Shown piece after piece: positions 1,610-62,187 of a stretch of DNA of 64,000 nucleotides (position 1 is the stretch's first letter; every line of letters begins with the position of its first letter). The DNA lies in the NCBI GenBank assembly GCA_933228895.1, contig OW121849.1, positions 36,612,354 to 36,676,353 on the forward strand, read 5' to 3'. Under the pieces are notes generated by a model. That model was not told where the DNA came from. It worked only from the letters and a program-made list of their open reading frames with translations, and did not search any database. The stretch comes from Platycnemis pennipes (Eukaryota; Arthropoda; Insecta; Odonata; Platycnemididae). The position numbers and the translations under genes are program-made.

Positions 1610-4094
1610 GTAAGTTCTGATGGAGAAAAGGCTCAAACGATAATCCTGTGATAGGTAGTTCTCTCCAAATCGTTTGGCTAGTTTCACTTTGACCCTAGGT
1701 GGCATCTCGACCAGTCCTTAATCTGCTCAATTAATTGAAGTAAGTTGGAGAAATAATTAAATTATACCTACTACTTGTCTTTACGTTTGTACTCATCCGG
1801 GGTACTCAACATTTCAATAGTGAAACGAAATCTATTATATCGAGTGCCATTCATCGTAGGTGAAGATTTTCATATTGTCCATGAGCTGGAATCGAGTTTG
1901 GTCCGGTGAATAGAGTATTCACCTCCTATTCCGAGACTATGGGTTCGATCTCCAACAGTGGCAAATTTTTCATTGGTATATCGGTCCCTGATTGAGCATT
2001 GCATGGAGGGAAGTTTAAATTCAATTCTCAGTCCGTCAGATGGGACGCTAAACGGTGAACACCTAGGAACCTTTAGTAAAGAACAGGCTAATGTCGACCG
2101 TTCTCAATTCCCTATTAAGTCATACCTCTTCCCAAAACTATACTTACATTAGTGGTGAAAATTACCTCCACTGTCCTTCCCTTAGCAACACAAAAGTAAT
2201 ATTATACGTAAGTATACCAAGAATTCCTAAATCTTTTTTACAAATAATTTGAAATATTGTGGAGAAGAAACATGAGGAATTTATATTTCAATTCGTTTCT
2301 TGCAATAATTTGATTTTCTTTGTTTCACTTAAATACAATTTACCGAGAATTTATGATTAGTACCTATAGATATTATTATACTTGTAAAAGTGTAAAAATC
2401 ATTTTTGCAATGCAATGCTGTTAACATCCTGTTTTTTACTGTATATTTTTCACTTTCTACAATCCGCGCAATATGGAATTACTACATGTAAATGTAAGCT
2501 AAAAATGAATTATTTGTAAATAACCTTTTACAGTAACGTATTTTTGTATAATGGCAATCCCCGTGAATAAATATTATCAATATCATGTAATCTACCTAAA
2601 ATTCACCATTTGAGGTTCCGAAAGAAATTGTTGTTCCATTCGACTGTGATTTCTGTCGTAGCTCGGCAAACTATTTATATAAAGAAAATATGCTACGCGA
2701 AGAAGAATGAACTGTTATTGATGTCCCACGCGAAGATAAGTTAATGGCTCATACATCCTCTTGTGGTCTTTTCCCGTGATGTCGGAAAACTAATGTATAA
2801 TTAAATAGGAGCTAAAGGCACTCCCATAACATTTACTTTCAAAGAAAGACGAGTCAACTGCTCTTAATGCACAGCATCGTCTCATCCATCAAGGAAATTT
2901 TTTTCCCGAAGCTCCACACCCCTATCAAATTTTTTTCACTGCCAGAGAAACTTCTACAAACTAGCTATTTCCATTAAAACGGTTTAAATCCTTACTTATT
3001 AAGGAAGGTAGGAAGGAAGTTTCCAAGGCCACTTGAAAAGCTTATTAAGGCATTAAAAATTACTCAGCAAAAATGCCCTAAATTCCTGTCTCCATGCAGG
3101 CGAAGAGGGAGGGATGGCGAGATAAGGGATCAAATCGCAGTATTTGTCTTCATTTTTGGATCTGCGAGAACGGAAAGGTCTGGAATTTTTTATGCAAACT
3201 TCGAAATTGTGAGATACATTCCTTGAATACTCGTTTTAATTATATTTTTATATTGTAACAAAACTGGTCTCCAGATTTAAGAGCTTCAATGAAAAAGCAC
3301 CTTTGAGAGAAAATATGTATTGAATATACCTCATGTCAATGACAATAACACTTGGCGCGAAGGATGTATCAAGTTAAACGCAAGTAGCGAAAGTTCCAAA
3401 GCACAGAGCTATTTTTCAGGTAAAAATCCAGTTTTTTTAAATGAAGTGTGAGAGGCTGCAAAAAGTTAAGTCAGAGACACGAACGGAGATAATTGTAATT
3501 CTCTCCATAAGGTGAATTGCGACGAAAATCAACGTGAAAACCGTGATTCATACGTTTAATAATTGGTGAAAGCGAAATAGTTCCATCAAGCCTTCCATAC
3601 GAAAAGTATCCTGTCTACTCTACTGCCCTCCGTGCTCAGCAATAAGTGAGGCAGAGCCATGGAGGAATTAGCATAGATTTAGACTCAAGGGACTGTGGCA
3701 AAGAAAGCATCCAGTGGCATCAACCTTAATGATTTTTCCTGTAGAGGGAGATAATGTAGTGTTTAAAAAGCATGCTGAGAATAAAATGTCCTGGGTGTAA
3801 AAAACTGACAAGTAAATGAAAGCAATAGCTTTTAAATTTCTTTCCTTTCCCAGGAAACATACACCTAGCTAGTCCATCTTGCTAATAATTTGAAAAATCT
3901 CTTCCATTTTTAAAGGAGTCAGATAAAAGCACTCATAATATTTTATATTTTGAACTCTATCTAATTTCCTGATGGAAAAAATGTGAAGCAGAGAATATTG
4001 TGCCGTTGCTCCTGAATATATTGTTAATGTTTTTTGCTAATGCTGTGTCAAAAAATTCTGCAAAATATTTATAGTACTTTTACATCTTTCACAG
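1610..4094 (+). other. KChIP intron (2.5 kb)
   Basis: The intron is bounded by GTAAGT at 1610 and a pyrimidine-rich acceptor ending ttcacag at 4094. Its only recognisable content is a degenerate tRNA-derived SINE at about 1893-2165. The rest is AT-rich, with no supported gene. Confidence 0.8.
1893..2165 (+). repeat. Degenerate tRNA-derived SINE
   Basis: This is an old copy of the SINE at 25472-25807 and 40377-40713. It retains the tRNA-like head (a B-box resembling GGTTCGATCTCC near 1944), then a diverged run matching the same body: 'cagtggcaaatttttca', a GGTCCC block, GTCCGTCAGATGGGACG (cf. GTCCGTTGGATGGGACG in the 25 kb copy), a CACCTAGGAACCTTT block and the pyrimidine-rich tail. It lies in the first visible intron, in the same orientation as the gene. 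Confidence 0.75.
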
Positions 4095-10177: not shown

Positions 10178-10714
10178 GTAATTCCCCAACATACAATTTA
10201 GTTCAGTTTATACAACCGTTTGTACAAGAAATTGTACAAAACATTGTACCGTGTGAAGCGGCCTTTAGACTTTAATAATGGCTTTCAAATCTGGGGTTTT
10301 CCTAATTTTTTCCTCTAGCTGCACATGTACCCAAAATCTCCCTTTACTTAAAGAAATGTTTGGATCAATCCCTTCTACTGAATTAAATGCATTACAGTCA
10401 AATATATTTAAATTTATGTAGGCCATATGCTGTATAGGAATTAGGTTTGACTCAGTGAATTTTATTTTCAGCCTGATGCTCATTCAAATTGTGAGGTTCT
10501 GAGATCGCCCGAAGAAGACTTTTCTGGATTATAAGGACCATGCAAGTGGAAATTCTGATGAGGTGGAGTCTTTGGACCTTATGGTGAGGTTAACAAATTA
10601 ATCAAGCGTCATAACGTAGCAGTTGTTAATATTTCTCACTTGGGACCTGTGGTATTTAAACTAAATTGCGTAGTTGTCTCAAGGTTAGTAATAGGACCTT
10701 GTGGTTTTTTCCAG

Positions 10715-13104
10715 GTGCAACAAGGGCTAGCAGAATTTTCTGAGAGTGATACTTCTAATGACTCAATTTGCAACAGTGACGGTAAACCTACAAATTTCCC
10801 TCCTGGTCACCATGCACTGCTAGATCCTCCTCTCCCTTTGTCCCCAGTGGATCGAGAACCATCACCAATTGAAAACAACCTTGGGTTGTTTCTTAATGAG
10901 CGTCTAAATGCCGATAGAAGTCTTTCCAGGGGTGAAATATTAATATGGGTGCTGAATTACAGCACCACACATAAATTATCACACCTAGCAACAGTGCAAT
11001 TGCTAAATGGTTTCAATATGTTTTTCTCCCAGCCACCATTGCCTAGAACGGCCTATTCTTTTGAAAATTTAATTGATAGGCTGAATGACATGGACACGTC
11101 ATATTACTTTATGTGTACGGAATGTGATCATATCCTGGGTGATTTCAAAAAGGCAACTTTGCCAACAGCACCAATGCAGTGCACACAATGCCACCATGAA
11201 AATCATGTCAAGGACTTGACAAAGGCCAGCTTTTTCATGGTATTCAATTTAAGAAACATGATTGAAAAGATACTGACAAAGCCTGGAATCATTGAGCAGA
11301 TAAAAGAAAGCAACCGACTTTCTAGAGAAAAGTTGGTGGTCAATCCTGGGGATGACTGTATTATACAAGATATTCAGGATGGTTTGTTGTATAAAGCTAT
11401 GTGTAGGGAAGTGCTCATGAATGATACAAACATATTATTATCAAGTGTTTTTAATACAGATGGATCACCTGTATCGAATTCATCAAAGTTTTCAGTCTGG
11501 CCTATGCATCAGGTCATCAATGAACTTAAGCCCAACTTGAGGGAAAAATTTATGCTTTTGACTGGATTGTGGTTTGGCAGAAAAAAGCCCAATATGACAA
11601 CTTACCTAGATGCAATTATCAAACATTGGAATGAACTGTCGCAAGATGGATTTAGAATCTACATCCAAGGGATGACAGTGCATGTGAGATTATTTACTGT
11701 TTGTTGCTGTGTGGACTCAGCTGCTCGTGGGCCTGTGCAAGGAATGTCGCTGTTTAATGGATACAATTCTTGCAACTGGTGCATGCACCCTGGTGAATGG
11801 GTAATGAACTCTGTGAAATATCCTTTCAGTAGAGACCCAGCCCCGCAGCTGAGAAATCACCAGCAAGCAGAGGATGATATGCTTAATGCTGTAGAAAGAG
11901 GTGTACCTGTTAATGGTTTTGTTAAAATTTCACCCCTCATTTTTTTGGATAAAATGGACCCTATTGATGGATTTACCCCTGATTACCAACACTGTATGTC
12001 CTTGGGAGTGAAAAAACTTATGGATAAAATATTCTTTGACACCAGAACTTTGCCATCAGGGATACAAAATCCTGCATACCTTGGTTCCCCACAAACTTTG
12101 AATGCCATCGACTCATACCTGAAAGGTATTAAAATTCCCAGTGCATTGTTTCACTCCCCGAGGTCAATTAAAGAGATAGATGCCAGTGGAAGAGTCATGA
12201 AAATGACAACTGGTTACTGTTTTACTCTCCTGCCATCTTAAAAAACGTTTTACCTAGTCAGCACTACTCCCACTTTATGAAGTTGGTACAAGCATTCCAT
12301 ATTCTTTTAGGTGAAAATATCAATAAGAGAGGTATTGAGTCATCAGAAGTTCTTTTAAATGAATTCGTTCGAGATGTGGATAGACTATATGGGAAGACAT
12401 TCTGCACTTTCAATGTTCATCAGCTGTTACACCTTCCCAGAAGTGTTGTGATGTGGGGACCTCTGTGGGCACATTGTGGTTACCCATTTGAATCGGCTAA
12501 TGGGAGAATGAAACGTCTGGTGAAGGCTGTTCGAGGAGTGGCTAGTCAGGTTGAGCGGCAGTTCAACTTCTCATTCAGTTCATCCATAATAACAGATATG
12601 GTTCAAGTGAGTGACCATGTACAGAGGTCATTGGACACCATATCAAACACCACATCCTCCAAAAGGAGGCACAGAAGGGAGGGAATTTCCTTTTTGGGAA
12701 AGCCAAAGCCTCAGTTGGTGGATGCTCCTCCTACAATCCCTAATGGCTGTGTGTATCATCGAATGCATAAGGATGGACTGCTTTTCACCAGTGACCAGGT
12801 AAAGAATGAAAAAACAGACTGCTCTTTTGCTGTTCTTGATTCTGGTCAGTTTGTTAGAATACGATGGTTTGTTCTGACAGCTGACAATGAAGAAAAACTA
12901 GCAGTGGTATCCATTCTATCCTGCAGGTTGTTAGTTGGAGTGAATCGAAATGTAAGGACAATGAAAAGCATCTTAAAATTCAATAAGAGTGCTCTAACAG
13001 TGGTATCGGTTCACAGAATTCTTAAACAGTGTATTTTTATAAAAACAAATGATACCAATTATATACTATTTGCTATACCTCATTGTCATGCTTTATCCTC
13101 ATAA
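10715..13104 (+). pseudogene. EnSpm/CACTA-like (TNP2-type) transposase, one frameshift
   Basis: The main transposase exon catalyses nothing now, but it is nearly open: frame one runs to a stop at 12241, and the same protein continues in the next frame to 13104. Visible features are a Cys-rich pair (FMCTECDH...MQCTQCHH) near residues 155-185 of the exon; the core around GMSLFNGYNSCNWCMHPGEW; and FTPDYQHCMSLGVKKLM, where TNP2 proteins carry a conserved D-x-x-H. The second frame holds NVHQLLHLPRSVVMWGPLWA and FESANGRMKRLV, the DUF4218-type tail. The frame break lies near 12205-12213, just before WLLFYSPAIL. No other stop interrupts about 770 codons, so the lesion is recent or single. Confidence 0.8.
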
Positions 13105-27927: not shown

Positions 27928-28475
27928 CGAGGTCTGTTAGAAAAGTATCCGACCTTATTTTTTTTTCGAAAACCTGAATCAAATGGGGTTGCATGAGCCG
28001 ACCTTGAACCTTCGTGCGCATGCGTGAATTTTTTCTCACCTTTCGATAGCGTCTGTTGCTGGAAAAGTGCATTTGAGTGAGGTAGTGTGTAGTGCTCTCG
28101 TAGGTTTTTCATTGCAAGGAAAATGACGGAACGACTGGAGCAGTGCTACTGCATCAAATTCTGCCCAAAACTGGGCGACAGCCAAGTGGAAACCATTAGG
28201 AAGATTCAGGCGGCTATCGGTGACGATGCTATTGGCATCACACAGATTAAGGAGAGGTACAACCGGTTTAAAGACAGCCGCACATCGGTGGAGAGTGAGC
28301 CACGCTCCGGTCGGCCATCATCATGCCGAAATGACGATGTCATTGCCAAAGTGAACGCTGTGGTGATCCGAGACCATCGTGTGACTCTCCGAGAAATTGC
28401 GGAAGAGGTGGGAACCAGTTTTTTTTCGGTACATTCCATTGTGACCGAAGATTTGGCCATGAAGAGAGTGGGGCG
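27928..28475 (+). pseudogene. mariner-like element, 5' half with N-terminal HTH coding
   Basis: A TA at 27926-27927 precedes the terminus CGAGGTCTGTTAGAAAAGTA, typical of mariner-family inverted repeats. The ATG at 28123 starts a frame with MTERLEQCYCIKFCPKLGDS, then ETIRKIQAAIGDDAIGITQI and VESEPRSGRPSS: the mos1-type helix-turn-helix half of a mariner transposase, ending at EDLAMKRV. After about 28475 the sequence becomes the adjoining LINE, so the catalytic DDD half and right terminus are missing. Only the DNA-binding half remains open. Confidence 0.85.
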
Positions 28476-28529
28476 AGGGTGGGGCACACCAGGGCCAAGA
28501 TAGGAGAGTCCTCTGTTGACGTATGTTGG

Positions 28530-32248: not shown

Positions 32249-32813
32249 ATGGACGGAGAGTAAGTGTTTAATTATTATTCAATTTAAAAATAATTATGTT
32301 TTTTAATATTTTTTTATTGATGCTTTGGTAAGTCAAGCTGGCGGAGATATATTGTATGAAAAGCATATTACGAACATGCGTGAAGAGTGAGTTTTCTTTC
32401 GACTTCAGTGGAAAATGGGCAACACTTTCAGAGTTTGCGAAGAGTTTATGTGCAAATCATATGGCCCTAGTTAAATGTTGATTCGAATTCCATAGCAGTA
32501 TTTTCACTCAACGTACGGGATAAAAAATCAAAGACACTTTGCATGCATCCTAAGTGTTACATATACTATTCATTTTCTCCATAATTATTCCTTAGTAATA
32601 GCAATTGGTTACGAAAGTAACTCGTTACATTTTCATTAAAAAAAGGGATTTTAATCATACTTACTCAGGAACAGGAAAAGGCTCTGGAAAACCACTAGAC
32701 AACAAAGTATGGTCATGGTGAACTTTATGATGGACCACCGCGAATTTGCGAGTGGTAGATTTGTCGGGCCTCAGGGGAAAATAGGGAACGAGAGACTGTG
32801 GAAGGAGCTGACG

Positions 32814-35375
32814 CACAGTGGTCGGAAATCGAAAATACCTGGCCAAAATTCAAAAAGTGATTTTTTCAAGCCAGGAAGCTGAAACTTTGCATTAATATTC
32901 TCAAAAAACCTGGGCATGCGATGATGCAAAGCATTTTCCTTAGTACACAACACTTAACTATTAGCATGAGGTCAAAGTACCACAAATTTCGCAAAAATTG
33001 TCTACACTCGATTTTCTCACGCAATCTTCAAAATCAAGCCCTTACCTAAGCATTATGTGTAAAGAATTGGAATAAAAAGTCATTTAATTAGATGAAACAG
33101 TTTTTCGTCTTTGTTTTCATGTAGTCTGCTTACATTTTTGTAATTATTTACCAAAGATATTAAACAAAATGGCATACCTTAATTTTTGGTCATTTTTTTC
33201 ATATAGGTAGAGAAATAGTTAATTGCATCACCGAGCATCACGAAGTAACTTATATGGGGAAACTCTACAAAGCTTCCACAGTGCGAATCCGATGAGTGGT
33301 GCTGCGACCGTTTGCGACGCCGAATTTCACATTAGTTTTTCGATCGCGCGGTCGAGTCTGGTTGAACCCGCCTGCAGCGGGGAGTAACGTGGCGTGGTAA
33401 GTGTGTGGACTGGATTGTAGTCGCATCCACTCCGCTTTGGAGATTTTCGAGATACAAACATTGACAAGATCCTCCATGCATTATATTTTGCAGAAATCGC
33501 GGAAAAAATTACGCATTTTAACACATGGGGTAAAGGTCTAGGAGGTACTGAAAAACTTCTTTCTTCGGGTGCACCGCGGGAGTTTCTCTTCTTACCAACT
33601 TGACGTCGCCTACCAACCGAATACGTACACTTTTAACGGAGACAGCATGCATACCACACAGAATAATTGTCTCTTCGAGGCCACCAAGGCCACCTACCTG
33701 GCAGGTAGGTAAAAAAGTGAACGAAACATTACTTTCTCATTCAAAAATATTTTATTGCGAAACTCACCCTCAGAACCTTCCAAAAGGAACGTGGAGAATA
33801 CAGAAAAATGCTTAAAGACAGGAAGATTCACCTGCAAAAGTCATTCAAAGAGAAGATGGGGCGAAATGTGGATGTACCTAGACCCGGGTATGGTACAACG
33901 AATGACGGAAATACTGCCAGACGATTCTTTGATAATCCCTCACTATCTTCAGAAATAACAGGTGTGAAAGACATCTAATTTCATTCTGATGCTACATTGG
34001 AATTTCATTCTTTAGGTTATTTTTGATTTCTTCTAACAAATTTCTAATTTCATTACAGGAATCGACATAAACTTGATTAACAGATTCTCTGTAATATTAC
34101 AGGCAATATCGAGTGGCCTGATTTGCATTATCGAGTGAAAAAGAAAAATACCTGATTTGTTCAGAGTGTGATGGCAGTGAACATTCGGATAGCGAATAGT
34201 AGAAATACAAGCAAAAACTGAATTTTGTAGTGCATATTTTGTTACATTTTAAGAAAAAGAAAGTTACATAATCATGATGAAATAGGGTATTGCAAATTAT
34301 TTCTCTTCACAGTATTTCTCCCTGGTACTGAATAAAAAATGACACTGACATTTAACATAACAAAAATAATTAAGCATCGGGATCGTAACACCCCAGAATC
34401 CCCGACAACGTTCCGCGGTGTCATAAAACGGACCCTTCGCCGAACACCCAATCGCAGTGTAGGGGGCGGGGGAATTGCAGCCGTGCGACACCAGCTGTGG
34501 GTTGGTGGCCTCGAAGAGACAATTATTCTGTGTGGTATGCATGCTGTCTCCGTTAAAAGTGTACGTATTCGGTTGGTAGGCGACGTCAAGTTGGTAAGAA
34601 GAGAAACTCCCGCGGTGCACCCGAAGAAAGAAGTTTTTCAGTACCTCCTAGACCTTTACCCCATGTGTTAAAATGCGTAATTTTTTCCGCGATTTCTGCA
34701 AAATATAATGCATGGAGGATCTTGTCAATGTTTGTATCTCGAAAATCTCCAAAGCGGAGTGGATGCGACTACAATCCAGTCCACACACTTACCACGCCAC
34801 GTTACTCCCCGCTGCAGGCGGGTTCAACCAGACTCGACCGCGCGATCGAAAAACTAATGTGAAATTCGGCGTCGCAAACGGTCGCAGCACCACTCATCGG
34901 ATTCGCACTGTGGAAGCTTTGTAGAGTTTCCCCATATAAGTTACTTCGTGATGCTCGGTGATGCAATTAACTATTTCTCTACCTATATGAAAAAAATGAC
35001 CAAAAATTAAGGTATGCCATTTTGTTTAATATCTTTGGTAAATAATTACAAAAATGTAAGCAGACTACATGAAAACAAAGACGAAAAACTGTTTCATCTA
35101 ATTAAATGACTTTTTATTCCAATTCTTTACACATAATGCTTAGGTAAGGGCTTGATTTTGAAGATTTCGTGAGAAAATCGAGTGTAGACAATTTTTGCGA
35201 AATTTGTGGTACTTTGACCTCATGCTAATAGTTAAGTGTTGTGTACTAAGGAAAATGCTTTGCATCATCGCATGCCCAGGTTTTTTGAGAATATTAATGC
35301 AAAGTTTCAGCTTCCTGGCTTGAAAAAATCACTTTTTGAATTTTGGCCAGGTATTTTCGATTTCCGACCACTGTG
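32814..35375. mobile_element. Transib-type element with 874-bp near-perfect inverted repeats and RSS-like ends
   Basis: The arms 32814-33687 and 34502-35375 are reverse complements with equal length (874 bp); I spotted one mismatch in the parts compared by eye (near 33023). The loop is 33688-34501. Both termini begin CACAGTG. The next 23 bp are followed by CAAAATTCA at each end. Direct repeats TGACG flank the element (32809-32813 and 35376-35380). A 5-bp GC-rich duplication and CACWRTG heptamer termini are hallmarks of Transib, the DNA transposon superfamily related to RAG1 recombination. The loop carries Transib transposase-like coding. The near identity of the arms implies recent formation or gene conversion. 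Confidence 0.87.
33766..34138 (+). pseudogene. Transib transposase fragment (RAG1-core-related) in the palindrome loop
   Basis: One exon (about 33766-33961, donor GTGTGA at 33962) encodes KSFKEKMGRNVDVPRPGYG then TTNDGNTARRFFDNPSLSSE and ITG. A second exon starts at 34059 after cattacag, in matching phase, and encodes IDINLINRFSVILQAISSG before a TGA at 34136. From memory of Transib and RAG1 alignments, the GN-x-ARR segment corresponds to GNFARKL in the C-terminal part of the RAG1 core. The catalytic DDE residues are not present. The rest of the domain, including the final catalytic Glu region, is missing, so it is inactive. Confidence 0.72.
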
Positions 35376-35455
35376 TGACGGCCCTTTTGGCGGAGCATGG
35401 CCCTGAGAAGACCGTCGAGTGGAAAAGTGGAAAAAGTTATTCTTACCAATTTAAA

Positions 35456-47271: not shown

Positions 47272-48360
47272 ATGGCAGAAAAAACCAAAGAATTGATTGC
47301 CAAACGCGGTCAAATCAAGGCCAGGGTCACGCGATTCAAGAATTTCGTGGAAAGCGTCAAGGTTCCCGGTGGAATACCACAACTGCGTCTCCGCCTGGAG
47401 AAGTTTAAGGATTGCTGGCAGGCATTCGAAGATATTCAATCCGAGATTGAATTATTGGGCGTGGAAGGCGACGATGAACGCGATGAATTTGAGGACACGT
47501 ACTTCAATATCGTTGCTAGGGCCGACGGAATAATTTAATCACTCCAGCCAACGGCCGATGTATCGCAGGAAAACGGCCATGATGTTGCTCCCGTGAAGCT
47601 CCTAGTCATTAATTTACCTATTTTTCACGGGGCCTATGATGAATGGGTAACCTTTTATGACACATTTAAGAGCCTCATTCATGATAACATGTCTTTATCG
47701 GGAATTCAGAAATTCCATTACTTAAGATCAACGCTGCGGGGAGAAGCGTTGCAAGTCATAGCCTCTCTTGCCACTTCAGAGCAAAATTACGGTATCGCTT
47801 GGGAACTGCTAATACAGCGCTTCGAGAACAAAGGTTTCATAATCAGCATGAACATCAAAGCCATGTTTGAATACAAGCAGTCAGAGAAGGAGTCGTCCTC
47901 AGGAATCAGACACCTCGTGGACCACTTCAATAAGCATTTGCGGGCGCTCCAAGCCATGGGGCAGCCTACTGGCTCCTGGGACGCGCTTCTCGTCCATCTT
48001 ATCACTAGCAAGATTGACCTGAGGCTTCATAAGGAATGGGAGGCGTCGTTACCGCGGGAAGAGCTGCCAAGTGCTGAAGGACTTCTTAACTTCCTTCAGC
48101 AAAGGTCGCAAGTGATGGAGACGGTAGACGCTCATCGCTCCATTCGTACCGCTACCGCATCCCACGATCAAGGGAAAAGACCACCCATAAAAACCAGCAG
48201 GCCTTTAATGGGGAATGTAACTGTCGCATCAAACTGCAAACTTTGCAGTGGGCATCACCAACTATATAAGTGCAGCATCTTTTTGAAAAAATCCATTCCC
48301 GAGAGGATTAACGATGTAAAAAATCTTGGATTATGTTTCAACTGCCTCAGGGCAGGCCAT
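47272..48360 (+). pseudogene. BEL/Pao gag, left part
   Basis: The frame from ATG 47272 encodes a helical, charged N terminus (KTKELIAKRGQIKARVTRFK). After a stop at 47538 the next frame (47593 on) carries the capsid-like domain: LPIFHGAYDEWVTFYDTFKS, then FHYLRSTLRGEALQVIASLA, both strongly conserved in Pao-family gag. Two zinc knuckles follow, the first at CKLCSGHHQLYKCSIFLKKS and the second starting LCFNCLRAGHL at 48330, where the MITE interrupts. Confidence 0.85.
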
Positions 48361-48364
48361 TTAA

Positions 48365-49158
48365 CCCTTTCGCGCCCGAGCTTCGTGGAGGGAAATTCTT
48401 CCTCGTTACGAGTCTCTTGAAAATTTTCTTCGCTCCCCTGCACGAAGCTTCCTCGCGTCCACGGAAGGCTGAGGTTCCCTTCCTAACCATTTTTGGACCC
48501 AACTCAGCGGGTCGCCGATCCCTTTCCTCGGCCGCTGTCCCAGACCCTCAAAGGATTAAAAGACTCCTTCACAGCGCGAGTCCACGGTCAACTGACGGAA
48601 ATTGCAATGTTTAATATAAACAAATATTTGTTGTTCGCATCGATTTTTTTACATTTAAAATGAATTTATTGTATTTTTCTGAGCGTGCAGAAATTTTAAA
48701 CGAAGTTGTAACGTTTATATTGACGGATTTAGTAATTTCTAATCCAAATCGACTGTTCCATAACTCCGTTGATATTAACGTTAGAATTTCGTTTGAAATT
48801 TCCATGCGGTAAGCAAAAAAAGATGAATTCATTTCTTAGATTGGATTTCTAAAGTAAGTAACAAATATTTTTTTGGAAAAAACACTGCAAATTACAGTTG
48901 TTGACCGCGTGGAGAGGATAGGAAGGGGTCGACTTGAGCGGTCGAGGAAGGGCCTGGGCTGGCGCTTAGCCGGATCTCGAGGGGCGACCGCGTACGTGGG
49001 TCTATTGTTTCCGCCACGGTCACTTTCTTCCGACCTGTGCCGCATAGGAGCGACATTCGTTGGTTAAGGTTAGGAAAATTCACGCCGCACATATGAGGCA
49101 TTCGTTGTTTAGGGAAGAATATCCTCGCCGCACAGGCGCGGCATTCGGCGCGAAAGGG
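48365..49158. mobile_element. piggyBac-type MITE with TTAA duplication
   Basis: The 794-bp element starts CCCTTTCGCGCC and ends GGCGCGAAAGGG, a perfect 12-bp terminal repeat. TTAA is present on both sides (48361-48364 and 49159-49162). TTAA target and CCC termini are diagnostic of piggyBac. It carries no transposase. It splits the second zinc knuckle of the BEL gag; loss of the element and one TTAA would put the two parts in one frame, so the insertion was simple and later than the BEL copy. Confidence 0.93.
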
Positions 49159-49162
49159 TTAA

Positions 49163-50343
49163 AGGATCACTGCACCTCAGGAAAATGTAAACATTGCGGT
49201 GAAGGGCACAACAGCTTGCTTCACATCACAGGTCACGCCCCAGCGGCAATTCATCTTCAAGGCAATTTATCAGCAAATTCAGCCTCATTCATTCCGTCAA
49301 CGCAGATACGGTCCACTACAGCACGTCTCTCTTGCCAGAGGGCGGAATCAAGTACAGTTCTTCTGTCTACAGCAGTCATCTGGGTGCATGATTCGCGAGG
49401 CTCCCCTCATCTCTGTCGAGCGTTGCTAGATTCAGTCTCTCAAGCCAACTTCATCACTGAAAGAATGGCGCAACTTCTAAGGCTCAAGAGGAAACCAGGC
49501 GTAACAGACATCGCTGGCATTGGAGGATCGGCCACTAGAAGTGCTCAGATGGTGCAAACCACAATTAAGTCCAGAACAACAGCATACAGGTCTCACATAA
49601 ATTGCTTGGTACTGTCAAGTATTACTTCCGAAATACCGGCGACTCCCGTTGACATATCAAATTGGAGTCCGCCATCTAATCTCCAACTTGCTGACCCTGG
49701 ATTTAATATCCCGCAAGTCGTTGACCTCCTCATAGGAGCAGAGTTATTCTTTGAAATGCTGTGTATTGGACAATTCAGGCCATCACCAACGCTTCCAATA
49801 TTGCAAAAGACCACATTAGGGTGGATATTTTCTGGAAGGGTCAAAACTAACACGAATTCAGGGTCGGCGCTCTGTCATCTCAGCACAGGAGAAACACTTG
49901 AGGAGTTGGTCCAAGGGTTTTGGAAGTTAGAAGAATGCAAGCCATCATCGAAATTCTCAGCTGAAGAATTGATGTGTGAAAAGCACTTCAATGAAAACAC
50001 CATAAGAGGGGCTGACGGGCGCTTCACCGTTCGACTACCGATCAAGGGTAACGTCTCTCATCTTGGCGAGTCTAAGCAAATTGCGACTCGCCGACTAATC
50101 GCAACTGAAAGGAGGCTACGCAGAGATGAAAATATGAGCTTAACATACACCTCGTTTATGAAGGAATACCAAGAATTTGGGCACATGGAACGGGTTACCG
50201 AAGAAGAACATCGACTCAGTGATGGAGCGTATTACATTCCCCATCATTCCGTCACAAAGGAAACCAGCTCCACAATAAAATTGAGAGTCGTCTTTGACGC
50301 ATCATGCAAGAGCTCAACAGATATTCAGGAAGAGTTACCATGA
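49163..50343 (+). pseudogene. BEL/Pao gag end, protease and start of RT
   Basis: The frame continues the zinc knuckle (CTSGKCKHCGEGHNSLLH) and then the protease: CRALLDSVSQANFITERMAQ, where the active site triplet is D-S-V instead of D-S-G/D-T-G. Further on are the conserved VDLLIGAELFFEMLCIG block and FSAEELMCEKHFNENT, then RT begins (IKLRVVFDASCKSST) but is cut at 50343 by the deletion. The DSV change would be expected to disable the protease; that is an inference. Confidence 0.82.
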
Positions 50344-51467
50344 CGACAGACTCCACCATGGTGCTTGCGTGGCTAAAGGCACCATCATCTAATTGGAAAA
50401 CGTTTGTCGCCAATAGAGTAGCCGAGATTCAGGAGCTGACGAGTGAATACAAATGGAGGCATATCAGCGGGCAAGAAAATCCCGCTGATCACATTTCAAG
50501 AGGGCTTTCGCCGCAACAATTATTGAATGCATTGTCATGGTGGCAAGGTCCATTATGGATGAGTGGTAGTGCAGAAGAATGGCCATCAGAATCATTCACT
50601 GAGATGCTAGAGCCCCCAGAAAAACGAACCATCGCCATCGCAATGATCACTATGGAGGCAAATCATTTACTCCAACGATATTCAGCGTTCTCTAAACTAC
50701 AAAGAGTAACGGCGTATTGTCTGCGATTCATTCACAATGCAGCAAAACAGAAGATGGAGAGGATGGGATGGGAGAACTTCGTGGGTGCCAACCGGGAATT
50801 GAAGGAACTGAATAAACTCTTCGCATCCCAGGCGCATAGAAAAAAGCTGTATCATTATCTGACAGCCGATGGAATCAATCGGCATTTCATCCCGCCTCGC
50901 TCGCTTCATTTCGGTGGACTTTGGGAAGCAGCAGTTCGCTCACTGAAATATCATTTAAAAAGAATTGCTGGGAACGCATCTTTAACATATGAAGAAACAT
51001 ACACGTATCTGACCATGATCGAGGCGTGCCTAAATTCCCGACCTATAACCCCAATGTCATCAGATCCTAATGACCTTAATTCCCTAACTCCCGGCCACTT
51101 CCTAATTGGTGATGCACTTACTGCCATCCCTGAACCAAGTCTGAATGAGATTCCCATCAATCGGCTATCCAGATGGCAGCACGTGACCAGAATGCAACAG
51201 CATTTTTGGTCCCGTTGGCACAAGGAGTACCTGTCCAGCCTCCAGGTGAGGCCCAAGTGGACCAGATGGGCACCCAGCTTGCAGCAAGGCGACCTGGTCC
51301 TTATTAAAGAGGACAATCTACCCCCTCAGAGGTGGAGCCTCGGTCGTATTGTGGATCTCCACCCAGGCCAAGATGGAGTTGCAAGAGTGGCCACAGTCAA
51401 AACGACTGCCGGGCTAATACGGCGGGCGGCCAACAAGCTCTGCCCGCTACCTAAGGAAGTCATTTAA
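50304..51467 (+). pseudogene. BEL/Pao RNase H tail and integrase, catalytic part deleted
   Basis: The frame starts with TDSTMVLAWLKAPSSNWKTF and WRHISGQENPADHISRGL, the end of RNase H. After AYCLRFIHNAAKQ it jumps directly to NFVGANRELKELNKLFASQA, so the HHCC zinc domain and the first two acidic residues of the integrase are missing. HFGGLWEAAVRSLKYHLKRI keeps the third (Glu). C-terminal coding (LTPGHFLIGDALTAIPEP; GDLVLIKEDNLPPQRW) is complete to 51467. Confidence 0.85.
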
Positions 51468-52278: not shown

Positions 52279-52399
52279 AAGTTACTTCGAGATAAAAACG
52301 GGAAAATCATTCAGGAAGTGAGTAAAGTTCTAAGAAGTGCTGTATTATATGATTATAAAAGAAAATATCCATTGCTAAGTATTTTTTATCTGTTTTAGA

Positions 52400-55125
52400 T
52401 ACCTTTTCGAGTGGCGAGACTGGTGGATGATGCAGTGCCCGTGTTGTTTCCGGGCTGCCTGGCATACTTGAGCAAGCCAAAAGTGAAGGCCAGGGAGTGC
52501 ATTGTGAGAAAGGATGTGGCGATAAAGTGGCCTAAGGTAACTGACGGTGTAAACGACGCAGATTCTGTGAGAACAATTGATGTACCAGAAAGTTCTCCCC
52601 CATCAGTATTTGAAGACTTGTGCAATGTGTCTAAATCACTGGACCTTCCAAACGGATGGAATAAATTTATCCTTATCTCTGGCCCTAAAGTCATCGTGTT
52701 TGGGCATCATATTTCAAAGTTGACGGAATGCGGAAAGGTGGACCTTGTTCTGTTTAAAGATGTTAGTATCAGTGAAGATAGTCATATAACCTGCTCTATT
52801 TTAAGAAAGACTGTGCCGAATGAAGATTTAGACATTCCTAATCAGCCTCTCACGAGTACTTCAGAGGTGAGGACTATTATTTTGAAACTCCATAGCCTTC
52901 AAATCTGCAAGGGTCATGTGATGAGAGAAGGATTCTCGGAAGTGAGCAGCAAAGTGTGCTCCATAGACGCTGCAGGTCAGTGGAGGCACAAAAACTGCAC
53001 CATGCAAATTAAGGATGGTGAATTGTGCAAACCGTGCCATCAAGTGAGGAGGACTATTCTTCAGAAATTCCTAAGAATGCAAAGAAAAACCTGTCTGTCT
53101 AAGGTGGTCTCCCCTCTGAGCCGGCACAGCCTCGATATTTTCAAGAGGAGATTAACAAATAATCGCCGCTCATTGTCAAGAGCTAAAGATCTTATTAATA
53201 AACTTCGCACAGAGGCCCATGAAGCCATGCAAAGGATGGAAGAAGAGTCGCTGATGGAAAAGCTCAGAGACAACCCAAATATTCCCTCCAACCAGCTGAT
53301 TGCATTGAATGAAATAGCAAGAGCTTGCAAGGTTAGAAGAGCTAGTGGACGAAGGTACTCAGAGGAGTGGATGATGTTATGCATACTGATGCACATAACG
53401 TCCCCTTCAGGATATAGATTCATTCGCAGGAATGAAATCCTGCCCCTTCCTAGTGTGAGGACTGTTAGGAGGTACCTTCAGCTCATTGATACCTCTTGTG
53501 GGTTTGATCCAAGGTTTTTTGAATTGTTGAAATTACAGTTATCACGCATGCCAGAGGCCCAAAAAAATGGTGTACTCCTGTGGGATGAAATGTGTGTTAG
53601 GGAAAGCATTTCAGTATGCTCCCGTAACCTCACTTATGTGGGCCTTATGGACTTTGGTGATGAGGAACCCAGAGCAACAGAAGCATCACAGAAAGCCAAT
53701 CATGCTTTGGTGCTGATGTTTCAGCCCCTAATTGACAAGTACACCCAACCTATAGCTGTATTTGCCTCATGAGGGGCGGTAAAAGGCGATACATTGGCAA
53801 AGTTAGCCCTAAAAGCTATCATCCTTCTGGAGAAAGCAGGAGCCAGAATTCATGGGTTTGTTTCCGTTGGGGCTGCTACTAACAGAAAAATGTGGACCTG
53901 CATGGGGATTAATGGCCAGTTGGGGAACATGAGAAATTTCTTTGTGCATCCACTGGATCCAAAGCGGAAAGTTTTTGCTTTTGCTGACACTCCACATTTG
54001 ATCAAAAACATTCGAAACAGACTTCATAACAACAAAGTACTGAAGGTGAGTACTGTGATTACTTATAGTGCTGATTTGTGTCTTTGAAATGATATTTACC
54101 TCATTTATCGTTCTTATCTGAGGAGATTATAATTTTCCATTTTGGCTTTCATTTTCAAGAATTATCTGGTTTCACTAATCCAGTTTTTCGTTTTGACCTA
54201 GGTGAATCCAAATCAACCATCAGTTAGGTGGGACCACTTTATTATTTTGCACCAGGTTGATCGGGAGATTCCTGGAGAGTTAAAAGAGTATGCCCTAAGA
54301 TCACAGAAAACCATGTGATTCTTAGTAATCTAATAAGATGAGAGTGAAACTGGCAACCCAGGTATGTTGAGCTGAAGGTGTCGTTGCAAACTTGTCAACA
54401 TTACAATGTAAACAGAATCTGTATCATCTCTGGGGACACTCATGTACTGTTAATATTATTTTTATTATTATTTCATGTTGTTTCTCAAGTATACATTATA
54501 ATGCCTCTGATGTTTATTTTGTCCATCTATTGGCAAGAGATTAGATGGATGAAGGAAATTTTAGTCTCAATATCAGTCAATTGAAGATTTTTATCGATAC
54601 ATCTATCTACATGATATTATTATTTTCAAAATACTTCAGAAATATTTTTAATATTGGCTTTATTTATTTTAAAAATACAGACTAAAGAAGTTTTCTGTTT
54701 CCATTCCAGATTTTTAGTAATTCTGTTGTCCAAGGTCTTAAATTTTATCAAAGGCATGGAGTTTCAGGGTTAAATGATATTGAAGGAACTCTATATTCTG
54801 CCAATGCATCAATGATATGTTTGACGCATTAAATACAAAAAGTGCTTCTGAGGCTGTGCAAGATTCTGCTGATTTCAAGGTGATTGTTTTACATTTTAAG
54901 TGCATTCGGTTGAAGTAAACATGTATTAAAAACTAGAGTAAGGCAAAAGACTCGTGAACCATATCTTCCTTTTAATTTCACCCCCAGGTTCTTCAAAATT
55001 GCAAATGCATCGTTATACGTTCATAGCTGAGTGGCTATTCCCATGGAAAAGAAGAAATACCCAAGAAATTGGCAATGAGGATGGGATCTCATGGGATAAT
55101 CAAGATTAGCATGCAGAATAAATAC
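52400..55125 (+). pseudogene. P-element/THAP9-like transposase gene, spliced, with an in-frame TGA
   Basis: After acceptor ctgttttag (52399) the frame reads VARLVDDAVPVLFPG, which carries the AVP-x-x-F tail of a THAP zinc domain whose start must lie upstream. A coiled coil (LINKLRTEAHEAMQRMEEES) follows, then the P-element RNase H-type core: NGVLLWDEMCVRESISVCSR (the D-E-M motif). A TGA at 53770-53772 breaks the frame, which continues with GARIHGFVSVGAATNRKMW and FAFADTPHLIKNIRNRL up to a donor GTGAGT at 54046. Later exons at 54202-54314, about 54717-54882 and about 54989 on give VNPNQPSVRWDHF, FSNSVVQGLKFYQRHGVSGL and MFDALNTKSASE. The last ones are decayed. Confidence 0.82.
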
Positions 55126-56410: not shown

Positions 56411-56750
56411 AGTGCCACATTGCAAAAGTGTCTCCCAAAGCGACAGGCGCGATGGACCGACCCTGAGACGGCCAATCCTCCGCCATATAGAGCTGGGACG
56501 TCACTGCCACAGCGGAGCTCAGCATCCCATGGGGGTCATCGCGAACCATCCTTGCGGCCCGATGGTCGCTATGACTACCAGAGAAAAGGACGTGTTCTGG
56601 TGCCAACTCATGACCAACTCACCACTGCAGAATCCGGGCAAGAATCTCTTAATTCCTTGCTCTTTTAGACCCCTTCTTCTGTGGCACCTTTCCTTCTCAA
56701 GGTTTGGGTAGAATTAGACGATGTTCCTGTGTTAATGGAAGTAGACAGCG

Positions 56751-57722
56751 CACAATGTCATAAATGTCCCTTTTCGCAGGACCCATTTGGGACAGGGGCT
56801 TGGACCGTGACCTCTTCGGTGCATCTTTTAGCACGTGCGTGCGGGTAGGGGGGCAAAAGGAATAAAAAACAATCCCAGGCGGTGTCTTTCTAGAAGGATG
56901 CATGGTCCACACGAAGACTACCCACTTTTTTGGTAAAAGGACGTAAATACGAAGTATGTTTCCCGAACGTTCGCAACAAAAATAACTTGAACGCTACTAC
57001 ACGTACAATTATCCACTCGCTCGATACAATATTCTCACCATTTTCGACCATGGAGAGTCTGTGGAGGTTAGTGACAATGTGTACAGCATAAACGTGGCGA
57101 ATACGAAGCTTTAGGGTTCATTCCACGTGAGCAATGCAAGCGAGTCTCGGCATTTCCAGCCCCGGCGCCCGGAGTCGGACCCCGGACGCGCGGTCGGAAA
57201 ATCATATGTATTTTTCGGCGTCGCAAACTTATTTTTTATTTCTCTTCAGTTTCGTATTCAAAAGTCTTCAACAAACGCTCTGATATAAGTCACTTGACAG
57301 GTCTCTCCCTAAAATGCTAGATATTCTCTACTTTATGTGAAATTTTGTCCAAAAACAGCTTCCGCCATTTTGTAACGTAATAGCACACAAATGTTATAAA
57401 CAATCTTCGAAACTAAAGCATAGTAGAGACAAAGCATAGTGTTAATAGATTATACCATTTTCTATTCGATCAAATTCCTCCCACAACGACACCATCAACA
57501 TAACTTTGAAGATATTCGGAGAAAAAGGAAGTCGGGAGTTTTTTGGAAATTTGGTCATCTTTGAGCCCCTGTATCTATCTAACGGTTTAGAATCATGGCA
57601 AATGACGTACTATTCCTAAATCAGCAATCTTTTGTGAGTATATGTGCGAAGTTTCAAGACCATATCTCAGAAAAAGCGATTTTTGAATTTTGTCCAAAAA
57701 TTTCCGGTTTCCGACCACTGTG
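56751..57722. mobile_element. Transib-type non-autonomous element inside Gypsy protease
   Basis: The left terminus is CACAATG and the right, read inward, is CACAGTG. CAGCG occurs directly before 56751 and after 57722 (5-bp GC-rich duplication). Read inward from the right end, 23 bp separate the heptamer from CAAAATTCA, as in the 32.8-35.4 kb element, and 57130-57722 resembles its arms (GTCGGAAA...; GGCGTCGCAAAC near 57216). Internal DNA has no transposase. It splits the protease active site between D-S and G; removal with one CAGCG rejoins the frame, which supports the borders. Confidence 0.87.
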
Positions 57723-59405
57723 CAGCGGTGCTGGCCTTACCATCCGTGGCAGTTCACTCTATGAGGCGACGTTTTCACACAAGGAACTTTTTCCATGCTC
57801 CATGACATTTTCCACTTGGTCAGATTATAAATTGAATTTGTTGAGGCAGTGTAAAATTAAGGCATATTACCGTGGGAAATGCGAGAGACTAGCAGTATTG
57901 GTTGCCTCAAGGCCTGGACCACCTTTATTAGGTCGCTCTTGGTTCGTACCAATGGGGATCAACGTCGAAGGAGTGAAATGTAAAACGTATTTCAATTGCC
58001 TGCTGAGATACCTAATTTCACTGATGTGTTCTCCCCAGGGTTAGGTGAATATTTAGGCCCACCTGCTCATATTTACATCAAACCTAATGTTAAACCAGTT
58101 TTTAAAAAGGCTAGGCCAGTGCCACAGTGCTATCCTATCAAACGTCAGCGCGGAATTAGATTGTGGCGATACTCCGCCACAACTGCCACGTTGGCTCGAT
58201 GGATTCGCTCTCGTCTCCCGTGCTGGTGGCCCGTGTTCGGGTGTGCCGAAACATATTATTACGTTTTTTCTCGGACACTTCTAGATTGTTCCCTAGAGTT
58301 CTGGTGTGGCCTTATAGACGATTCCTTCGTCTTCTCCACCTGTATATAAGTCGCTTCTCCTGCCATTCACGCCAGTCTTGTACGAAGAGTACTCTAATAA
58401 ACATCTATTCTCAAGAAGAAAACGAGTATCATTCCACGCTGCCGACGCTACAAGATAAAATGGTAACTGATGGTATTGTGGTACCAGTGAATGTTTCTGA
58501 ATGGGCCACCCCAATCGTTTTGTTCCAAAAGAGGGACGGCTCTCTTAAAATATGTGGTAATTATTCATCCGCCGTCAATCTGAACTGTCTGAGGGACATA
58601 TATCCATTGCCTAAAATTGATGATGTACTCGCCAAACCGGCTGCTGGACGGTTCTTCGCCAGGCTGAACTTATCCTTGCTTTTCTTCAAATGTCTGTGGA
58701 TTCTGAGACCGCTGAGGTCTCTCAATGGACTCTGACTCTCAATACCCGCAAGAGGTTATTTCAGGTTCGCAGACTCAGTCAGAGTCTCATTGCTGCGCCC
58801 GGAATATTCCAGCGGACGATGGAATCCATTCTGAGCGGGCTCGATGGAGTCCTTGCCTACTTGATAACATCCTGGTCCAAGCCCCGACGATGGAAACGTT
58901 ATAGGATCGTGTGAGGAAGGCCCTCGCCAGAATTGCAGCTGCATGCCTGCGTCTTCCGCTGGAAAAATGTGAATTTGGTGTTCCCAGCCTCGAGTATGTT
59001 GGCTACCACGTAAGCGCCGAAGGGGTCACCCCAACGAAAGGTAAAGTTGAGGCCATCTTGAAGGCTCCCACACTGTCTGACATTGATACGTTGAGAATGT
59101 ACTTGGGATTCATAAACTACTATGATAGATTTTGCCCAAACAGCCACGCATTTTCATGCATTGTACGACCGCCTCAAGGAAGGTACTCCCTGGAAGTGGT
59201 CTAATGAACATGATAAGTTCATCGAATGTGTGAAGGATGTGGTAAACAATGCAGTACTTGTAAATTTCTCTCCCAAACTCCCTACTGTTCTCGCTTGTGA
59301 TGCTCCCATTGTGGTCTAGGAGCAGTGTTGTCGCCCATCATGCCTGATGGAAGTGAACGTCCTGTTGCTTTTGGGCCTCGTACTCTTACTCCAGCGAAAG
59401 AAACT
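57723..59405 (+). pseudogene. Gypsy protease end, RT and RNase H start, several frameshifts
   Basis: After the Transib insertion come the rest of the protease (GPPLLGRSWFVPMG at about 57910), then the RT entry (IYIKPNVKPVFKKARPVP), interrupted by the insert at about 58161-58434. RT continues with MVTDGIVVPVNVSEWATPIV, YPLPKIDDVLAKPAAGRFFA and IAAPGIFQRTMESILSGLDG. The catalytic Y-x-D-D at about 58858 is broken by a missing base. Next are LEKCEFGVPSLEYVGYHVSA and YLGFINYYDRFCPN. RNase H begins near 59320 (VLSPIMPDGSERPVAFGP). Multiple frame changes show it is dead. Confidence 0.82.
58161..58434 (+). repeat. Probable solo LTR inside the Gypsy RT
   Basis: About 275 bp starting TGTGGCGATACTCCGCCACA, with TATATAAG at about 58344 and AATAAA at 58396-58401, interrupts RT coding between AELD and the next RT helix. 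These are LTR features (promoter and poly(A) signal). The borders and a target duplication are not exact by eye, so the type is probable only. Confidence 0.5.
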
Positions 59406-59415
59406 ACTCTCACGT

Positions 59416-62187
59416 TGACAATACTAGGCTTGGTCACCCTAACATCCAAACAATGAACAAAATAGACGTGCTGTCAGAACTTTGCTCAAAGAGGGGCACA
59501 GGAGAAGAATGCTGCGAAGCGTGCATAGTGGGAAAAATGACGAGAAAGAAATTTCCCAGTAGTAGTGATGCAGAGGACCTAGGGGTCCTGCACAGGGTCC
59601 ATTCGGACATAATGGGTCCTATCAATCCAAGATCAACCTTCATTTACGAGTGCTCGAGATTTGTGGCTAGTGTAGCAATAGTGAAGAAAAGTGAAGCTCT
59701 AGACCACTTCATTCGCATTAAGAATAGATGGGAGAAAATCCATGGGAGAAGGATAAAGGAGTTCCAAACAGACAGGGGGACAGAATACATGTCAAGTAAC
59801 TTTCAGCGGCTCTTGGAAGAGAATGGCATTATGCACAGGAAGTCTGTTGAATATGCTCCTCAACCGAAAGAATGAATTAAATCCTGCGTGATACCATGAG
59901 ATGTCTACTGTTTCAATCTGGACTTCCCCTCCGATTTTCGGCCGAAGCTCTTCAAACATGCTGCTACCTTAGGAACCGATGCCCATCAAGAGCCATACAG
60001 TTCGCTGCACCCCTGGAGAAATGGTGTTGGAGTGAAACTTGGAAGAAGAGACCTGGAGCACATCCGCACGTTTGGCTGCCAGGTATGGGCTTGCCCTAAA
60101 GAGAAGCAAGGGGGAAAATTTGCAGCCAAGGCAGTGGAGAGCATACTCCTAGGTTACGACGAAGGCACAAAGGGCTACAGACTCTGGAGCGTGTCGGCGG
60201 GACGTGTCCTCAACAGCCGGGATGTCATCTTTCGTGAATACCGCTTCCCATTCAAGGAGAAGGAGACCCATGCTGCAGTCCGCCCAACCCACCAGGAGAT
60301 GGCATACTTCTTTGACGAGGCAGTGGATCATCCAAGAGAGGATGGTTTTCTCTGCCGTATGAGGACCAGGGTGACCGCCATCCAGGAGAGGATTGCCTTG
60401 GGCCAGTACAGCCACCACCACCCGGGAGCAAGGGTGGCCCAGGAGAGGATGACCTTGAGGCAGACTTGTATCCACCAGATGCAGCGCAGGAGATGCCTGC
60501 ACCAGGAGAGGCAGTTCCACGCAGGTCTATATCGTCTAAGGAAAGGTATTGAGTATTCATGTTGCAAACTAGTTCATTGCAAAAACCTTAGTGACGTTAC
60601 AAAGACAGCAGAGGAAGAATTCCAAGGGCCTGAAGCTGACCAGTGGAGACAAGCTATGGAAGCAGAATTTGATAACATGCAGCAGCAAGAAACGTGGGAG
60701 ATTGTGAAGCGACCTATAGATCGCAGTGTAATTGTAAGTGGGTTTTTGTAAAGAAAAGGGATCAGGAAGGGAATGTGGTGAAGTTTAAAGCAAGGTTAGT
60801 AGCCCAAGGCTTTAGCCAAATCCATGGCATTGATTACACTGAAACCTTTAGCCCAGTTGTACATAAGAAAACTATTAGAGTTCTCATGGTTATCGCTACT
60901 GAGAATGATTGGCAAATGAAACAATATGATGTAGTAGGAGCATATTTAAATAGCCCCCTAGAAGTTACTGTATTCATGGAGCAGGCACCATGCATGAGCA
61001 AATCAGGTATTGATCCTGATAAGTTTGTGTACAAATTATTAAAAAGTCTTTATGGTCTTAAACAAGCAGGTAGAAATTGGAAGTTTTTTGAAATATTGTT
61101 TATTGAAGACTGGACTGAATAAGTGTAAGACTGACTCTTGTGTGTATTTTTCAGAATCAGTTATTGTTGGAGTGTACGTCGATGACTTTCTTGTTATAAG
61201 CTTACTTAAGGAGATTGGACAATTTAAGGTAAAAATACAACAATACATGGAGATAAAGATCTAGGATTGTCTGACCTATCGTCTTTAAAATGTATTAAAA
61301 ATAATGAAAATGGATTGATTGTTAGTCAAGAAAGGTATATCACAGACATACTCCATGAGTTTGGTATGGATGCTTGTAAGGGAGTAAGCATGCCACTGGA
61401 AGTGGGAAGTATCATGAGAGGAAGATGTGCTGATGAGAATGTATTTGATAAGACATTGTATCGCAAGGCAATGGTATGCTTATTGTATCTTGCTGGAGGG
61501 ACAAGACCAGACATTCCCAATGCTATTTGTAGGTTGAGTCAATACTGTGAGTGCCCAACGAAACAAGATTGGAAAAATGTTCAGCATGTGGTTAGATATT
61601 TGTCAAAGACAAGTGATCATTCATTGCATTATCATAAGACTTGTGATCAGATCAAAGTGTACTCAGATGCAGATTGGGGAAATGATAAGAGATGATGGTA
61701 AAACTTTTACTGGCTATCATCATTTTCGCAGGAGGTCCCATTATTTGGAAGAGCAAGAAGCATAATTGTGTTGCCTCTTCATCTACGCAAGCTGAGTACG
61801 CGGCAATGTATCATACTGTTACTGAGGTTCAATGGTCCACTTCCTTTTTACAGGAAATAGGTCAAGCAAAATTTTGTCAATGCACTGTAGAAATTATGGT
61901 TCATTATTTCAGATTGCAGCAAACATTTTAGGATTAAGTTTTTCTATGTAAAGGAAACAGTTGAGAATGGTGAGGCTGTAATTAAATATGTTAACACAGA
62001 TGAAAATATTTCTGATCTATTAACTAAACCTCTTACAGGTATTAAAACCAAACGGTTTTGCATAGCTCTTAGTGTGTGTTTTTAATTTTTGCTAATTTGA
62101 ATAGCGTTTTTTTGTCATTTATGATTTTTGGAGGTTGTTTGACTTGTTAGTTTAGCATTGAAGTTGATTTGTTTTATTTTGAGGAGA
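59416..62187 (+). mobile_element. Copia retrotransposon 3' part: integrase, RT, RNase H
   Basis: Starts within the GAG-pre-integrase domain (LGHPNIQTMNKIDVLSEL, then C-C-E-A-C knuckle at 59509-59525). The integrase core follows: VHSDIMGPINPRSTF, FQTDRGTEYMSSNF and ENGIMHRKSVEYAPQ. Then HIRTFGCQVWACPKEKQGGK, RT (FSQIHGIDYTETFSPVVHKK; Y-V-D-D at 61175-61186) and RNase H (IWKSKKHNCVASSSTQAEYA). A purine run before TGTTAATGGG at about 62189 fits a polypurine tract and 3' LTR start. There are at least five frame changes. It is fused to a Gypsy RNase H on the left. Confidence 0.85.

Follow-up and report, generated by a model that had tools for sequence, protein, structure and literature searches.

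The palindrome at 32814-35375 is, with high confidence, a non-autonomous member of the Transib superfamily of DNA transposons, putatively of the cut-and-paste type, and its fold-back-like arms measure about 1 kb. It lies in the window, which here means the whole stretch of 64,000 nucleotides of Platycnemis pennipes DNA that was analysed (contig OW121849.1, positions 36,612,354 to 36,676,353). The identification is based on its ends, its target-site duplications, the remnant of a transposase in its spacer, its many long-arm relatives in the host genome and the internal deletion by which it differs from them. A Transib transposase from another element would cut at the CACAGTG heptamers (trans-mobilisation), the cut ends would be joined, with a stagger of 5 bp, to a target resembling CGNCG, and the arms of each element would be kept alike by one being copied from the other, possibly around transposition.

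Borders, arms and end signals of the palindrome

The features of the element and its flanks are as follows.

32814..35375, + strand: non-autonomous long-arm Transib element of family A, internally deleted copy, 2562 bp
32814..33687, + strand: left arm, 874 bp, shortened from ~964 bp by deletion
34412..35375, - strand: right arm, 964 bp, the family length; its outer 874 bp (34502-35375) pairs with the left arm
32814..32820, + strand: heptamer CACAGTG, left terminus
35369..35375, - strand: heptamer CACAGTG, right terminus (the + strand reads CACTGTG)
32844..32852, + strand: CAAAATTCA, left end, 23 bp inside the heptamer
35337..35345, - strand: CAAAATTCA, right end, 23 bp inside the heptamer, mirrored
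32809..32813: target-site duplication TGACG, left
35376..35380: target-site duplication TGACG, right

The first-pass annotation of this DNA had described CACAGTG termini, TGACG flanks and near-identical arms of 874 bp, all of which were found again, and the alignment of 32814-33687 with 34502-35375 has a single mismatch over 874 bp (C/A at arm position 209; 99.9% identity). Chance is excluded for an inverted repeat of that length and identity. The spacer between the paired arms is 814 bp, and the element thus has the structure of the fold-back class, in which long inverted arms surround a middle domain. Both ends begin, like Transib termini, with CAC in an RSS-like heptamer; for the flanks, a lone 5-mer match is expected by chance in about 1 of 1024 cases. 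Each arm carries an extra internal CACAGTG (33277-33283 and 34906-34912), with no border role here.

The ends had also been likened to V(D)J recombination signal sequences (RSS), with a block 23 bp inside each heptamer. The heptamer and the equal spacing hold, with CAAAATTCA at that distance at both ends, but the likeness of this block to the RSS nonamer ACAAAAACC is weak: CAAAATTCA agrees at 4/9 positions at spacer 23 and CCAAAATTC at 6/9 at spacer 22, and 6/9 is reached by 8% of 9133 window positions when six spacers are allowed. Nor do the ends form a V(D)J-type 12/23 signal pair, being alike, with the best nonamer match the one at spacer 22.

The transposase remnant in the spacer

On the + strand of the spacer lie two exon-like pieces which, when joined, read LRTFQKERGEYRK...GTTNDGNTARRFF...AISSG.

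33769..33961, + strand: transposase remnant, predicted exon A, central part (...GTTNDGNTARRFF...)
33962..34058, + strand: 97-bp GT-AG intron, predicted from frame and homology
34059..34120, + strand: transposase remnant, predicted exon B, up to ...ISSG, where transposase homology stops

The remnant matches the HzTransib transposase structure 6pqn over 80 residues (6pqn 282-362, E=1e-19) as well as eight short predicted proteins (E 2e-20 to 1e-5); a Pfam-A scan of it returned no family. Two of the eight, P0006 and P0008, diverge directly after the intron position, and the intron may be common to these relatives. A long genomic relative of 680 residues, L069, matches 6pqn over 472 residues (E=1.8e-133). 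Remnant and relative are thus of the Transib/RAG1-core type, which bears out the earlier naming of the palindrome as a Transib-type element.

The idea that the inner arm had captured an exon of the host, in the form of a 116-aa open frame (34300-34647, minus strand) that spans the right arm boundary, was also considered and rejected; the frame has no Pfam family, a best PDB match of E 0.38, and 0/2 candidates in a large protein set.

A family of long-arm elements in the host genome

The host assembly (1.79 Gb in 88 contigs, the window sitting on contig 3) was searched for further copies. A search for CAAAATTCA 12-34 bp after CACAGTG gave 532+512 places, and its reversed control 13+8; the spacer is exactly 23 bp in 84 of the 100 places listed (a count by eye, with 12-34 allowed). 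The 29-bp end of family A was present at 462 sites and its control at 0. Relatives of the window element were absent from the viral contigs, prokaryote genome contigs and phages searched.

Two sets of end pairs were drawn from these places, all 52 pairs being on contigs 1-3. The first (28) takes in all convergent pairs no more than 13 kb apart from the 100 listed CACAGTG plus CAAAATTCA places; the other 44 of these places lack a convergent partner at that distance and stand outside the pair counts. The second comprises 24 further pairs among 100 listed places of the family-A 29-bp end, one end pair 24.7 kb apart having been left out. The same motif was required at both ends, so that copies with unlike ends would escape, and its presence in the pairs, being there by design, is no independent test; the duplications and the arm lengths are independent. 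Identical 5-bp duplications flank 52/52 pairs (28 + 24), 26 of the first set being tabulated and two (L017 and a 12.7-kb pair) read off the printed sequence. The genome search proposed with the first-pass annotation, for further copies bordered by CACAGTG with 5-bp repeats, was thus passed, and the GC-rich 5-bp duplications it had described proved to be a CGNCG-like feature of the family. In 28 duplications (26 genomic and the two of window elements) the consensus positions are C in 26, G in 23, C in 26 and G in 25, and in the second set (n=24) C in 23, G in 23, C in 19 and G in 23; those 28 have a GC content of 81%, and the window as a whole one of 41%.

Inverted arms of 337-2284 bp were found in 45 of the 50 elements read (L017, minus its last 24 bp, among them), 31 of the 45 having arms of 941-1001 bp, and within a copy the arms of long-arm elements are 96.9-100% identical. 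About 964 bp is usual in family A, and arms extend further inward in L010 (2284 bp), L037 (1528 bp), L045/L046 (~1285 bp) and L018 (1172 bp). The arms of L010 (G000:C1:16592720-16598363; 99.8% identical) and L037 (G000:C2:28086936-28094395; 99.7%) include inverted transposase-coding pieces, and L017 (G000:C1:164206000-164215999) is a Transib copy whose open frames, 507 and 1235 aa long, resemble by eye a LINE-type retroelement. Five elements (L032-L035, L038), whose ends start CACAGTGGGCT, have short terminal inverted repeats (TIRs) of 39-56 bp. The arms of families A and B can be aligned over ~665 bp (score 177, where 100 shuffles gave nothing above 56) and are a median 43% apart in their aligned tips. 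Palindromic symmetry is the family norm and no accident of the window copy.

Concerted evolution of the arms

The arms of a copy resemble each other more than they resemble the arms of other copies. The nearest neighbour was the arm's own partner for 24/24 family-A and 10/10 family-B arms in a first comparison and for 42/42 arms in a second; of the 70 family-A arms in the largest set, 60 had the partner as strictly nearest, 4 were ties and 6 were exceptions, these last all between closely related copies (L020/L057, L045/L046, L049/L050), and the partner was nearest for 16/16 B/C arms. A run over 874 bp that ignored shorter arms gave 55/68, with 8 of its 13 exceptions from copies with 752- or 337-bp arms. 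Rows whose arms were too short, or whose right end fell outside the sequence fetched for that copy, were left out: the A-type copies L012, L013 and L017 from the first comparison, L012 and L017 from the second, L012, L013, L017 and L044 from the 874-bp run, and L012, L017 and L062 from the largest set.

Divergence within a copy has a median of 0.14% (maximum 1.95%) in family A, against 3.34% between copies, and of 0.18% for B/C arm pairs. Between seven near-full-length copies it is 3.2% in the left arm, 3.5% in the interior and 2.9% in the right arm. Copy-specific changes present in both arms outnumber differences between the arms, by 113 to 73 in family A and by 44 to 10 in B/C. That the partner arm is nearest and shares copy-specific changes points to changes passing between the arms of one copy, and the arms appear to be homogenised within each copy.

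As to the timing, resident palindromes might convert in place over long times, with nothing tied to transposition, and conversion in resident palindromes is known; the low medians for arm pairs in both groups and the changes held by both arms are what such conversion would leave, and we regard this account as possible, if somewhat doubtful. The target-site duplications speak to the point, since they show 0 differences in 54 pairs where 2.2-5.9 would be expected if the shared changes all postdated insertion. With branches assumed at 0.4-1.1% from a rough reading of the trees, equal rates, and the two window elements having been noticed by their duplications, this is compatible with conversion in place at the shortest branch (0.4%, P 0.115) and tells against it at the longest (1.1%, P 0.003). 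The unchanged duplications therefore favour, at most mildly, homogenisation near the time of transposition over homogenisation long after the copy had inserted.

An internal deletion and the origin of the window copy

Aligned with L015 (3814 bp), the window copy corresponds to positions 1-874 (97.6%) and 2112-3814 (96.1%). It is an L015-like structure minus ~1.24 kb, with the left arm cut from 964 to 874 bp, and this deletion explains why the arm is 874 bp long and the spacer 814 bp.

33688..33698, + strand: deletion junction, ~10-11 bp of filler resembling nearby sequence

The filler is as would be expected of error-prone end joining, and the deletion would have arisen when a gap was wrongly repaired or ends were wrongly joined, leaving the short filler behind. 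The junction sequence has a single occurrence in the genome, and there is thus no sign of the deleted form having multiplied.

A different origin had been proposed in the first-pass annotation, which saw in the palindrome a recent fold-back made by inverse duplication of one end, giving a symmetrical 23/23-type pair. The symmetry stands, as the copies found usually have symmetric ends; the origin by duplication does not, with long arms in 45 of 50 relatives and the copy itself being an internal deletion. That a short-TIR Transib had one end recently duplicated in inverse here is very unlikely, even though short-TIR Transibs coexist in the genome (the five above) and the inward-extended arms of L010, L037, L045/L046 and L018 indicate that inverse duplication does happen: family-A arms usually measure ~964 bp, the window copy is shorter than its relatives in both arm and interior, and the alignment across the deletion junction refutes the idea for this copy. 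The long-arm lineage may instead have begun with an inverse end duplication that preceded the split of A and B. As for an artefact of assembly or sequencing, a false inverted duplication, the chance is negligible, for although near-perfect palindromes can arise from chimeric reads, the borders here coincide exactly with heptamers that lie within duplications, the spacer lacks symmetry, and long arms with duplications of their own are present at 45 other loci.

Autonomy and the supply of transposase

Measured against L069, residues ~469-555 are left in the window copy and ~247-556 in most family-A copies of ~3.8 kb. A match to L069 was found in 40 of the 45 long-arm copies (L013, L017, L044, L048 and L050 gave none) and none reaches past residue 556; the C-terminus is kept by no long-arm copy among the 45 sampled, and a C-terminal check with P0001 gave no convincing match. 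The window element therefore lacks a complete transposase of its own, which bears on its autonomy and not on its superfamily.

Elsewhere the genome holds at least 150 Transib transposase matches (150 of 1563 candidates were scored), and among the matches listed are several open frames of ~680-728 aa. Equal score and frame length recur at several of the listed loci. The long open frames are plausible suppliers of transposase for the long-arm copies. Within the 4.5-5 kb read around three of them there was no heptamer pair with matching 5-mers, and no intact source element with the ends of the window element was found. Also against trans-mobilisation, many family-A copies retain a piece from the middle of the transposase, for which an element mobilised purely in trans would have no need.

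A second element in the window: a solo arm

The window contains a second, smaller element of the same kind.

56751..57722, - strand: solo arm of family B, 972 bp; ~970 of the 1001 bp of an arm
56746..56750: target-site duplication CAGCG, left
57723..57727: target-site duplication CAGCG, right

About 970 of its 972 bp aligns to one family-B arm at 96-98%, and the homology stops at the heptamer. An asymmetric ancestral Transib was considered and dropped, as comparison with the genomic family-B copies identifies the element as a solo arm. At its inner end it reads CACAATG. Six B/C right arms were read at the equivalent site, of which five have CGCAATG or CGAAATG and one, that of L025, has CACAATG, the left arm of the same copy having CGCAATG. 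As a 25-base pattern the CACAATG version occurs three times in the genome, twice in a normal arm after GGTTC and once as the boundary at 56751-57722. A matching 5-mer plus CACWRTG upstream within 1 kb was met at 1 of 650 control positions; a cruder rate based on CAGCG, 0.016 per kb, counts the 56751-57722 site itself.

In the simplest reading, a heptamer apparently arose by a CpG transition (CGCAATG to CACAATG) and was then taken by the transposase for an end. Against this, a nonamer-like block is missing from the end, CGCAATG is what the closest copy (L023, 98.1%) has, and the case is single. It is tempting to join the two elements in one account, which we put forward tentatively: Transib here would be a fold-back lineage whose 1-kb arms are re-copied from one another around each round of movement, both ends being renewed from one, and in which one CpG transition in an arm released the 972-bp transposon at 56751-57722. 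If this is true, a RAG-type signal was born by one base change and caught within one window.

Other features of the window

An exon-like open frame at 1210-1620 matches Kv channel-interacting protein 1 (7w6n, E=9.8e-19), and two long overlapping frames lie at 10562-13104, the second with a sub-threshold match to DUF4218. A mariner-type transposase fragment (Mos1 HTH) is found at 28093-28503 and a P-element-like transposase frame at 52399-53772 (TNP-like RNase H N-terminal domain, E=3.1e-19). DUF1759 and DUF5641 are present in the retroelement frames at 47539-51467, which are probably BEL/Pao, and retroelement pieces at 59357-61122 (RVT_2 and an integrase core just below the cut-off) we take to be Copia-like.

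Comparison with known systems

The window element is ordinary in kind, a non-autonomous Transib, and notable in form, with its fold-back-like arms, their concerted evolution and a possible new end. Among the titles and abstract openings covered, a part of the matching literature, no fold-back or 1-kb-arm Transib was described and no report of concerted arm evolution in Transib was found. Mutator elements in general make duplications of ~8-10 bp. Those of the fold-back Tetris are 8-10 bp, and most fold-backs seem to be Mutator, according to excerpts of PMC4079207; with 5 bp, the elements here fall outside that range.

The window element resembles Hztransib of Helicoverpa zea (PDB 6pqn) in its transposase homology. 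Passages of the description of Hztransib give it a 5-bp GC-rich duplication, GCTCG, and already call its TIRs 'long' (PMC1852546), which tempers the earlier remark that so long a palindrome is unusual for the superfamily, though the five short-TIR relatives found here agree with it. Unlike Hztransib (3518 bp, with a deduced transposase of 489 aa), the long-arm copies sampled here lack the transposase C-terminus. Transib elements have a CAC heptamer and 5-bp duplications (PMC7204232, in part), and most families have symmetric TIRs (PMC8289069, in part). Short-TIR Transib elements thus share with the long-arm family the heptamer, the duplications and mostly symmetric ends; the difference is in length, the short-TIR relatives in this genome having TIRs of 39-56 bp (n=5) against arms that are usually ~1 kb. 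With many long open Transib transposase frames in the same genome, long-arm and short-arm substrates would be directly comparable.

Galileo offers a parallel in form. Its TIRs are ~0.3-1.2 kb, their length is variable, and its longest-arm copies have no transposase frame (from parts of PMC3573991); the arms of one copy are closest, at 0.0071 for 2L/2R against 0.0234-0.0591 for the other values in the 2L row, and its duplications are 7 bp (from parts of PMC2775673). The phenomenon of concerted arms is therefore not itself new. Galileo and other fold-backs, of the P and Mutator superfamilies, are like the present family in their long, length-variable arms and the likeness of arms within a copy, and unlike it in belonging to other transposase superfamilies and in the duplication, here 5 bp. 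The RAG1-related Transib thereby joins the superfamilies with fold-back-type arms, and many copies in one genome show such arms evolving in concert inside each copy.

CACAGTG is also the consensus heptamer of the RSS (PMC8289069, in part). Unlike V(D)J signals, the ends here have the same spacing at both sides, a nonamer agreement of 4-6/9 and no 12/23 pair. It is on the origin of RSS-like sites that the solo arm at 56751-57722 bears, as a testable natural case in which a one-base change may have made a new transposon end.
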